Assembly (NCBI GenBank): GCA_938015425.1
Contig: CALLPQ010000172.1
Coordinates: 1 to 32,279, forward strand
DNA length: 32,279 bases
Source of the DNA: an uncultured Parvularculaceae bacterium
GTDB taxonomy: Bacteria; Pseudomonadota; Alphaproteobacteria; Caulobacterales; Parvularculaceae
Direction: 5' to 3'
Shown here in pieces: positions 97-29,516 of this stretch. Below the pieces are notes generated by a model. It was not told the origin of the DNA. It did no database searches and saw nothing but the letters and a program-made list of their open reading frames with translations. A program made the position numbers and the translations under genes. Each line of letters starts with the position of its first letter. The first letter of the stretch is position 1.

Positions 97-747
97 ATGA
101 GCCTTGATGAAACTAATACGAATAATAAGATAAACAACAAAAAAGCTAACGATAAAACTAACGATAGCGGCGGCGAACATAAGGAAGCCCCGCGTGCGCA
201 CTTTACAGACATGGAAACTAGTACGCAAAAAGATTGGCAAACTATTGCCGGACAATATTTACCGTTTGCGGCCCAAGGGGGAAAGCGGGTGTTGGATCAT
301 TTCCGCGAGCTTGGTAATGACCATGGCGGGTTTCCTGTCAGCCGGGTGGATCATAGTATACAAACCGCGACCAGAGCCTATCGTGACGGGCGTGACGAAG
401 AATATGTTGTGTGTGCTTTGTTGCACGATATTGGTGATTTACTAGGCGCCTATAATCACCCCGATATTGCCGCCGCCATTTTAAAACCATTTGTCTCTGA
501 GCAAAACCATTGGATGGTGGCTAATCATGGTATTTTCCAGGCTTATTATTATGCCCATTACTTAGGAGGCGATAGAAACAAGAGAGATCAGTATAAAGAC
601 CACCCATATTTTCAATATACAGCTGAATTTTGCGAAAAATATGATCAAAACTCTTTTGACCCTAATTATGATAATATGCCGTTAGAGGCGTTTGAGCCAA
701 TGGTTATGAAATTATTTCAAGTGCCTAAAAATGGAATAAGTATATGA
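97..747 (+). CDS. HD-domain protein, PhnZ/TmpB-like diiron oxygenase candidate
   Basis: This 216-residue soluble protein has an HD-domain core. Visible candidate metal ligands are His86 (VDHS), His110-Asp111 (LLHDIGD), His121 (NHPD), His144 (ANHG) and Asp188 (SFDP). That six-ligand set is what the family of HD-fold mixed-valent diiron oxygenases (PhnZ, TmpB) uses, but bimetal HD phosphohydrolases have a similar set, so oxygenase versus hydrolase is not settled. As I recall PhnZ, a Tyr and a Glu just before the first His help position substrate; here that stretch reads DHGGFPVSRVDH and I see neither, suggesting another substrate. The first 30 residues are Asn/Lys-rich low complexity with a near-perfect 12-bp DNA duplication (CTAACGATAAAA type). 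The stop overlaps the MFS start as ATGA, so the two are translationally coupled. A TmpA/PhnY-like dioxygenase partner, if there is one, would lie upstream of the window. Confidence 0.8.
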   Translation: MSLDETNTNNKINNKKANDKTNDSGGEHKEAPRAHFTDMETSTQKDWQTIAGQYLPFAAQGGKRVLDHFRELGNDHGGFPVSRVDHSIQTATRAYRDGRDEEYVVCALLHDIGDLLGAYNHPDIAAAILKPFVSEQNHWMVANHGIFQAYYYAHYLGGDRNKRDQYKDHPYFQYTAEFCEKYDQNSFDPNYDNMPLEAFEPMVMKLFQVPKNGISI

Positions 748-2090
748 AGACGGAAACGGAGGCTGGCTTTGATGACCGCAAAGCGGGCTCCAAAGTGGTT
801 CCCAAGGCAGGGTTTTATCGCCTCTATGTTTTATTACTCCTTACAGCGGTTTACACATTTAATTTTATTGACCGGCAAATTATGGGTATTATTGCCCCTG
901 CCATCCAGGCGGATTTAAAACTGGCAGATTGGCAATTGGGTTTATTATTAGGCCCTGCTTTTGCGGTTCTTTATGCGGTGATGGGTATTCCTATTGCGCG
1001 ATTGGCCGACCGCTGGAACCGCGTATCGATAATTACTATTGCATTGATTTGCTGGTCGGGGTTTACGGCTTTGTCAGGCTTTGCCCAAAATTTTGGACAA
1101 TTGGCGTTGGCGCGAATTGGCGTGGGGATTGGCGAAGCAGGGGGGTCACCCCCGTCACATTCCCTGATTTCTGATTTATATCCAAAGGAAAAACGAGCGG
1201 GGGCTTTATCGGTTTATGCTCTTGGAATTCCTATCGGGATTACACTGGCTTATTTGGGAGGAGGGTGGATAACCCAAGCGGTTGGCTGGCGTGAGGCGTT
1301 TTTCCTTGTGGGTGTTCCGGGAATTGCCTTGGCTCTATTGCTAAAATTGACTGTGGCCGAACCAAAAAGAGGCCACCTGAAAAAAGGGCCCCTCAAAAAG
1401 GAAGATGGGAAACAGGCAAGCCAGATCAGTGTTTGGGAAGCAGCAAAACATCTTTTTTCAATCCGTTCTTATCGGTTGGTTGTCTGTGCCCTGACAGCGG
1501 GGTCATTTGTTTCTTATTCGGTGGGGAATTGGATTGTTGTTTTCTTCCAGCGCACACACCCTGATTTTTCAATTTATAAAGTCTTTATATGGCTTGGTAT
1601 TTTGTCGGGCACCGCATATGTCATGGGAGCGTTTTTGGGCGGGCGGATTGTCGATAGATTAGCCCTTAAAAATCGTTCCGCTTACGGCCTTGTACCGGCG
1701 GTTGCTTTTTTAATCTTGTTGCCTTGTTTTTTGATGGTGTTATGGGTTGGAAATGCGCCGATGGCTTTGGTATTTTTCTGGCCGGTAAATTTATTATTCG
1801 GAATATATCTTGGGCCTTCGTTTGCTTTAGCCCAAACCTTAGCGCCGGTTTCTATGCGTGCATTTGCGACCGCGATCTCGTTCTTTGTTATTAATTTGAT
1901 TGCCCTTGGTATGGGGCCGGCCTATATTGGTTTCATTAGTAATATTTTGAGCGATGCTTTTAATCTCGGGGATGTGCCTGGGTTACGATGGGCACTGACC
2001 AGCACTGTTATCGTATTGATGGTGAGCATTATATTATTTTGGCGGTTATCAAAATCCATTGAAGCTGATTGGAAAACATCAAGCGGATAA
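744..2090 (+). CDS. MFS transporter, spinster-type
   Basis: This 448-residue inner-membrane protein has about 12 hydrophobic helices. The first carries FNFIDRQIMG, typical of the spinster-like branch of the major facilitator superfamily. The loop between helices 2 and 3 has the MFS signature variant IPIARLADRWNR, followed by ARIGVGIGEAGGSPPSHSL in helices 4-5. It presumably exports or imports a small organic molecule; the substrate cannot be read from the sequence. Its ATG overlaps the stop of the HD protein by four bases, so the two probably act on the same compound. The cytoplasmic loop between helices 6 and 7 contains a degenerate 15-bp tandem duplication encoding GHLKK-GPLKK. The family call is firm; the role is open. 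Confidence 0.9.
   Translation: MKTETEAGFDDRKAGSKVVPKAGFYRLYVLLLLTAVYTFNFIDRQIMGIIAPAIQADLKLADWQLGLLLGPAFAVLYAVMGIPIARLADRWNRVSIITIALICWSGFTALSGFAQNFGQLALARIGVGIGEAGGSPPSHSLISDLYPKEKRAGALSVYALGIPIGITLAYLGGGWITQAVGWREAFFLVGVPGIALALLLKLTVAEPKRGHLKKGPLKKEDGKQASQISVWEAAKHLFSIRSYRLVVCALTAGSFVSYSVGNWIVVFFQRTHPDFSIYKVFIWLGILSGTAYVMGAFLGGRIVDRLALKNRSAYGLVPAVAFLILLPCFLMVLWVGNAPMALVFFWPVNLLFGIYLGPSFALAQTLAPVSMRAFATAISFFVINLIALGMGPAYIGFISNILSDAFNLGDVPGLRWALTSTVIVLMVSIILFWRLSKSIEADWKTSSG
1371..1400 (+). repeat. 15-bp degenerate tandem duplication inside MFS gene
   Basis: Two adjacent units, GGCCACCTGAAAAAA and GGGCCCCTCAAAAAG, match at 11 of 15 positions. They encode GHLKK and GPLKK in the central cytoplasmic loop. 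The period is a multiple of three, so the frame is kept. Confidence 0.5.
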
Positions 2091-29141: not shown

Positions 29142-29189
29142 GGTATAATGATTTAAGACCATAAAGAGTTATGATCATAAGGGTTTATG
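29142..29189. repeat. Three-unit 16-bp degenerate tandem repeat
   Basis: The units are GGTATAATGATTTAAG, ACCATAAAGAGTTATG and ATCATAAGGGTTTATG. Units 2 and 3 match at 12 of 16 positions, units 1 and 2 at 10. They lie between the divergent molybdenum hydroxylase operon and the CoA-transferase fragment; the last unit supplies the ATG the ORF track uses as start. Confidence 0.75.
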
Positions 29190-29231
29190 CCTTATCGGGT
29201 TTTTGGGTGGAGCCATGGGAAAGTAAAATTT

Positions 29232-29516
29232 ATGACGCAAATGGGCAAAGATAATAGAACGAAACATCAGGATCAAAACCAACCCCCCTCTAAAGGGTCA
29301 GGCCAAAACCTAAACGGGCCATTGACAGGCGTTAGGGTGTTAGATTTAAGCCGTATTTTGGCGGGCCCGTTTGCGAGCCAGCAATTAGGAGATTTAGGCG
29401 CCGAGATATTAAAGATCAAGCGCCCTGTTGATGGAGATGATACGAGAAAATGGGGGTCGCCTTTTGCGTCAATATTCGCCAAAAGGGACAGACATTGCCG
29501 TTCACTCGCAGACTAG
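29232..29516 (+). pseudogene. Truncated CaiB/BaiF-type family III CoA-transferase (N-terminal fragment)
   Basis: The fragment reads LTGVRVLDLSRILAGPFASQQLGDLGAEILKI, then DGDDTRKWGSPF, the characteristic N-terminus of formyl-CoA/crotonobetainyl-CoA transferases. Similarity then stops and about 16 unrelated residues lead to a TAG, so about 95 codons of an enzyme normally near 400 residues remain. The catalytic aspartate, which lies around residue 170 in such enzymes, is missing. The fragment should be inactive. Start is uncertain: an ATG at 29187 (in the repeat) or at 29232; I use the latter, since the family-like sequence begins further on. The break falls near 29465 and coincides with the change to AT-rich accessory sequence. 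Confidence 0.85.

Follow-up and report, generated by a model that had tools for sequence, protein, structure and literature searches.

The gene at the start of a 32,279-bp contig from an uncultured Parvularculaceae bacterium probably encodes an HD-domain oxygenase with a mixed-valent diiron site that acts on a non-phosphonate substrate, a reading to which we assign a probability of roughly 0.6. The contig (C172) is complete and was analysed at its whole length, here called the window; it belongs to a genome that is 78% complete. By its sequence, the 216-residue product of the ATG-initiated open reading frame (ORF) at 97-747 belongs to a large sister clade of PhnZ and TmpB, apparently uncharacterised so far and defined here by Asp114 and Gln148 (D114/Q148 clade), and not to the phosphonate family. 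The gene is followed by an overlapping gene for a transporter of the major facilitator superfamily (MFS). The features referred to below are:

97-747, plus strand: HD-domain protein, 216 amino acids, candidate diiron oxygenase of the D114/Q148 sister clade of PhnZ/TmpB (ORF; profile and fold matches to PhnZ/TmpB only; tree; predicted local distance difference test (pLDDT) 89.5)
316-366, plus strand: codons 74-90, NDHGGFPVSRVDHSIQT, in place of the PhnZ Y24xxE27 loop, with the first ligand H86 and the HxxQ motif (Q89) (alignment with PhnZ and TmpB)
424-438, plus strand: codons 110-114, HDIGD, with ligands H110 and D111, and D114 for the His of the phosphonate enzymes (PhnZ H62) (alignment)
457-540, plus strand: codons 121-148, with ligands H121 and H144, and Q148 for Lys (PhnZ K108) (alignment; Gln 71/72 versus Lys 32/32)
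643-657, plus strand: codons 183-187, with the sixth ligand D183, and F187 for a Lys invariant in the phosphonate clade (alignment)
744-2090, plus strand: MFS transporter, 448 amino acids, ATGA overlap with the HD gene, coupling not conserved and probably incidental (Pfam MFS_1, 9.7e-44)

In a search with the window protein as single sequence, TmpB and PhnZ were matched at 6e-5 to 1e-4. With the family profile these values improved to 1.9e-8 for PhnZ and 2.9e-8 for TmpB, and the first hydrolase followed only at 0.12. When the AlphaFold model (pLDDT 89.5) was submitted to Foldseek, all ten matches at E ≤ 1e-3 were PhnZ/TmpB chains, with template modelling scores (normalised by target) of 0.60-0.70; MIOX came next (E 0.24, probability 0.97). 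No solved HD hydrolase was matched significantly, the best E values being 0.12 by profile and 0.20 by Foldseek. PhnZ and TmpB were the only confident matches, which groups the protein with the HD oxygenases in fold and metal site. The NCBI models TIGR03276, NF049941 and NF052439 scored 40.9, 27.8 and 19.9 bits against cut-offs of 214.6, 300 and 300, respectively, and covered a core of only about 45-55 residues. Residues 33-214 could be aligned with homologues; residues ~1-28 were modelled with low confidence and lie outside the conserved family.

For comparison of individual residues, an alignment of 104 rows was used, which comprised 32 close homologues (window protein included), 40 weaker alphaproteobacterial relatives and 32 phosphonate-type rows (PhnZ and TmpB, each with its aligned part, and 30 matches to TIGR03276). 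The candidate diiron ligands H86, H110, D111, H121, H144 and D183 align with H34, H58, D59, H80, H104 and D161 of PhnZ (numbering counted from the 4MLM sequence). All six, whose presence had been noted in an initial sequence-only reading of the gene, are invariant in 90/90 close homologues and in 104/104 of the wider relatives including PhnZ and TmpB, and the set is therefore far beyond chance. The same H...HD...H...H...D pattern is reported to bind the diiron cofactor in MIOX, PhnZ and TmpB (PMC8177086). An HxxQ motif beside the first ligand, common to PhnZ and TmpB, was present in 103 of the 104 rows.

The residues that handle substrate in PhnZ had been described as not visible in the initial reading, and the alignment confirmed that Y24, E27, H62 and K108 are all replaced in the window protein. 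Two of them, Y24 and E27, constitute the substrate loop of PhnZ (PMC8177086). Instead of this YxxE loop, the window protein has H76-G-G-F79, and xGGF is the replacement throughout the clade: position 76 is Tyr in 32/32 rows of the phosphonate clade and mixed elsewhere, and position 79 is Glu in 27/32 versus Phe or Tyr elsewhere. The counterparts of H62 and K108, which we take from PhnZ structure work to be phosphonate contacts, are positions 114 and 148. The former is His in 32/32 phosphonate-clade rows versus Asp in 66/72 others (32/32 of the close set, 34/40 of the weaker relatives), and the latter Lys in 32/32 versus Gln in 71/72; likewise, position 187 is Lys in 32/32 versus Phe in 71/72. 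With the phosphonate pocket lost and an acidic residue, D114, fixed at a site that is occupied by a base in the known enzymes, a phosphonate is most likely not the substrate. The window protein shares fold, metal ligands, HxxQ motif and a length of about 200 residues with PhnZ and TmpB, but it differs from them in its pocket, and its segment from the last His to the last Asp is shorter than that of PhnZ by about 20 residues (those around PhnZ 115-135).

In a maximum-likelihood tree, whose bootstrap had not fully settled, the 32 phosphonate rows were set apart by a long branch with 100/100 support. The window protein was placed on the other side, in an eight-row Parvularculaceae group. The sequence-only reading had put it forward as a candidate PhnZ/TmpB-type oxygenase. 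Profile and Foldseek results bear out a relationship to PhnZ/TmpB and not to plain phosphohydrolases, whereas scores below the cut-offs and the 100/100 branch place the protein outside the family proper. The phosphonate substrate suggested at the same time is not supported, given the pocket replacements throughout the clade and the separation of the phosphonate enzymes.

Eighty homologous loci were fetched, encoding proteins 55-75% identical to the window protein and originating from Parvularculaceae, Hyphomonadaceae, other alphaproteobacteria, Pseudomonas, Variovorax, Ralstonia and Cupriavidus. An HD homologue was matched in 29 of 61 related (kin) genomes, and a full-length relative in 40 of 299 sampled genomes of the phylum (matches below 1e-40). 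According to these counts, the gene represents a common, well-conserved family and not a local oddity. A literature search returned no description of the D114/Q148 clade, which is not proof of absence.

To compare gene neighbourhoods, a profile-based sorting assigned each locus to one of three groups, namely the window's subfamily (Q), its sister subfamilies (W) or the phosphonate clade (T); near-identical proteins were collapsed. Gene calls around the homologues were mechanical ORFs, and spurious antisense ORFs in GC-rich genomes made some of the neighbour lists noisy; therefore, only neighbours confirmed by Pfam or profile were used. A 2-oxoglutarate dioxygenase gene was located directly upstream on the same strand in 9/40 W loci versus 0/81 Q loci (Fisher p 2.4e-5, not corrected for relatedness). 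This search relied on similarity to 2-oxoglutarate-type enzymes found in these loci and may miss divergent oxygenases; as a control, the TauD partner was recovered in 6/29 T loci, for which flanks were only 1.5 kb. Like PhnZ and TmpB, the D114/Q148 clade as a whole can pair with such dioxygenases, although no such pairing was found in the window's subfamily. The W partners were TauD (L131, L171), PhyH (L143, L162, L229, L230, L234) and DIOX (L138, L145) proteins. The TauD proteins were closest to TmpA and gamma-butyrobetaine hydroxylase, yet below the TmpA cut-off. At L138 and L145, the HD gene directly follows an isopenicillin-N-synthase-type (DIOX_N) oxygenase gene, a third kind of 2-oxoglutarate-type partner; the L138 protein reads HDLGH where most of the clade has Asp. 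Fatty-acid hydroxylase genes adjoin the HD genes of a sister subfamily at L139 and L172. In six genomes of one genus, presumably Rhizobiales-like, a carnitine 3-dehydrogenase-like gene comes directly after a W-type HD gene, together with an acyl-CoA dehydrogenase gene (L221-L226, L239-L241).

When 114 co-directional neighbours of Q genes were scanned with Pfam, none of the 25 families listed was a 2-oxoglutarate family, and Mpo1-like (8) and class II aldolase (6) occurred most often. The gene for an Mpo1-like 2-hydroxy-acid dioxygenase precedes the Q gene in 27 Pseudomonas-type loci (12 unique), and a divergent AraC regulator gene was seen next to this pair in L089. Class II aldolase genes, whose products are related to the decarboxylase NovR (6e-23), adjoin the Q gene on either side in nine loci (seven unique). 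The aldolase was discarded as an obligate partner, since 58 of the 61 kin genomes carry the gene, with or without the HD gene. A small cassette of class II aldolase, HD and alpha/beta hydrolase genes lies by a transposase gene on a 12.9-kb mobilizable plasmid of Sphingobium baderi (L174). Overall, the recurring neighbours give a weak hint at oxidation of hydroxy acids or lipids.

On the P. aeruginosa plasmid pF045_1 (L171), genes for a TmpA-like TauD protein, a D114-type HD protein, a choline ATP-binding cassette (ABC) binding protein, choline dehydrogenase and aldehyde dehydrogenase stand in a row, a candidate quaternary-amine pathway with a TmpAB-like pair devoid of the phosphonate residues. 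The HD protein of this plasmid is 43% identical to the window protein and belongs to the same HD superclade with Asp after HDxG. It differs in being part of another subfamily and in its setting, a choline-catabolism-like operon in which a TauD gene related to TmpA and gamma-butyrobetaine hydroxylase precedes it.

MIOX was the third best fold class, and a sister protein is named 'inositol oxygenase family protein' in some records. The fold match is weak, however, and no MIOX chain was matched significantly by sequence. The residue after HDxG is presumably Lys in MIOX and is Asp in the window protein. MIOX, a six-ligand HD diiron oxygenase without the YxxE loop (PMC8177086), nevertheless resembles the window protein in its six ligands and in its lack of that loop.

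The sequence-only reading had also proposed that the HD protein and the transporter could form an uptake-and-cleavage pair. The ATGA overlap (744-747) was verified, and the second ORF, labelled spinster-type in that reading, encodes an MFS_1 protein; bacterial genomes being compact, an overlap alone carries little weight. In the 80 loci, no relative of the window's MFS gene was found up to 6 kb from the HD gene, nor was there one in the 1.5-kb flanks of 19 kin loci. Its homologues (48-53% identity) occur at other places in related genomes, some of which are without an HD homologue, and several sit between a quinone-oxidoreductase-like gene and metG. In the only other locus with adjoining HD and MFS genes (L147), the transporter is 25% identical to that of the window. 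A conserved HD-MFS operon was therefore rejected, the proposed pair finds no backing, and the two neighbours are probably unrelated.

The contig edge lies 96 bp upstream of the HD gene, and since the contig starts at base 1, any upstream dioxygenase partner is out of sight in the window. A 27-codon frame open from the contig edge ends at base 84 (QKPTQSGVIAPFFLDKVALGFCDGNRN), 12 bp before the HD start; it may be the tail of an upstream gene, and a search with it gave no convincing match (best E 0.87). The source genome has three PhyH genes on other contigs, and a search for TauD elsewhere in it was negative. The PhyH genes were considered as remote partners and dismissed, as nothing links them to the HD gene. 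At the far end of the window (29187-29516), a class III coenzyme A (CoA)-transferase gene contains only about the first 48 of 366 positions before a stop, and beyond 30 kb GC content falls from ~0.45 to 0.375; this is either a gene cut at an island border or an assembly join.

If iron occupancy, O2 chemistry and substrate are as predicted, the window protein would hold two irons by its six ligands. A substrate hydroxyl adjacent to the scissile bond would chelate one iron, and O2 on the other would abstract the C-H hydrogen, after which the neighbouring bond would be broken oxidatively. As a guess, we favour a reaction in which a C-C bond of an alpha-hydroxy acid or a comparable carbon compound is cleaved. 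An oxygenase is supported by the sister subfamilies, which pair with 2-oxoglutarate dioxygenases as PhnZ and TmpB do, and by the recurrence of the window's subfamily beside genes of oxidative metabolism (Mpo1-like, class II aldolase). Several points weigh against it. Significant sequence similarity to PhnZ/TmpB spans only about 50 residues, and similar six-ligand sites can occur in dinuclear HD hydrolases, so that the ligands alone are no proof of oxygenase chemistry. No 2-oxoglutarate partner was found in the window's subfamily (0/81), partner genes vary by lineage and therefore no single pathway emerges, and co-occurrence of the near-universal aldolase adds nothing beyond adjacency. Finally, we know of no D114/Q148 member, among those found here, with known activity, metal or substrate. 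The sequence-only reading had named clustering with plain phosphohydrolases and lack of a dioxygenase partner as findings that would speak against it; the former was not observed, and the latter was seen in the loci of the window's subfamily (0/81).

A phosphonate (or close analogue) oxygenase of altered specificity, fed by the overlapping transporter, is the least credible of the alternatives. It draws on the nearest solved relatives, PhnZ and TmpB, and on the ATGA overlap, but the window protein has retained none of Y24, E27, H62, K108 and a second Lys, all of them near-invariant in the phosphonate clade, the tree splits the clades at 100/100, no 2-oxoglutarate partner was found in the subfamily, the MFS adjacency is not conserved, and no bona fide PhnZ/TmpB was found elsewhere in the source genome. 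A YqeK-like dinuclear HD phosphohydrolase or phosphodiesterase, in which the old fold would serve two-metal phosphoester hydrolysis, is unlikely, though clearly less so. The HD domain core is shared with YqeK, dGTPase and others, Pfam recognised only a generic HD domain just below cut-off, and one plasmid record carries the annotation phosphohydrolase. However, PhnZ and TmpB were matched by both profile and fold and solved hydrolases by neither of the two (profile E 0.12 or higher, fold E ≥ 0.2), the window protein shares the HxxQ motif with PhnZ and TmpB, and sister subfamilies adjoin oxygenases.

The HD protein might also be catalytically different, that is, a hydratase, a regulator or an inactive relic. 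HD folds do include the hydratase Ddi2 (PMC8177086), and no function is assigned across the whole clade. Ddi2, however, lacks the last Asp, which the window protein has, and retention of six ligands and dense pocket residues over alpha-, beta- and gammaproteobacteria argues for selected catalysis, which makes this idea quite improbable. A narrower form of the preferred oxygenase reading, in which an alpha-hydroxy acid would lose one carbon (alpha-oxidation) where PhnZ releases phosphate, is about as doubtful as the phosphohydrolase. The adjoining genes for Mpo1-like 2-hydroxy-palmitic acid dioxygenases in Pseudomonas, the NovR-related aldolases, and the fatty-acid hydroxylases and carnitine dehydrogenase next to a sister subfamily fit with it; all this is no more than guilt by association across different lineages, co-regulation of the partners would not require a common substrate, and the window itself has neither an Mpo1-like nor an aldolase neighbour.

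According to a 2020 review, only three HD-domain oxygenases, MIOX, PhnZ and TmpB, had been characterised (PMC8177086), to which a 2023 phosphonate review added the PhnZ-type variants G. maris PhnZ and PhoF (PMC10574752). A widespread sister clade in which the metal site is the same and the pocket rebuilt would amount to a considerable reservoir of iron oxygenases without an assigned role. It is conceivable, at somewhat less than even odds, that the D114/Q148 clade is a broad family of HD diiron oxygenases for non-phosphonate substrates, fed by 2-oxoglutarate dioxygenases in some lineages and by Mpo1-like or class II aldolase enzymes in others. PhnZ and TmpB would then represent one specialised branch of a general family of C-X-cleaving oxygenases. 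Residues 114 and 148 (Asp/Gln versus His/Lys) offer a simple way to tell true phosphonate genes from the D114/Q148 clade. Published estimates of phnZ abundance in the ocean range from below 0.01% to about 20% of bacteria (PMC10574752). If the broad-family view is true, part of the phnZ counted by loose searches would be unrelated to phosphonates.
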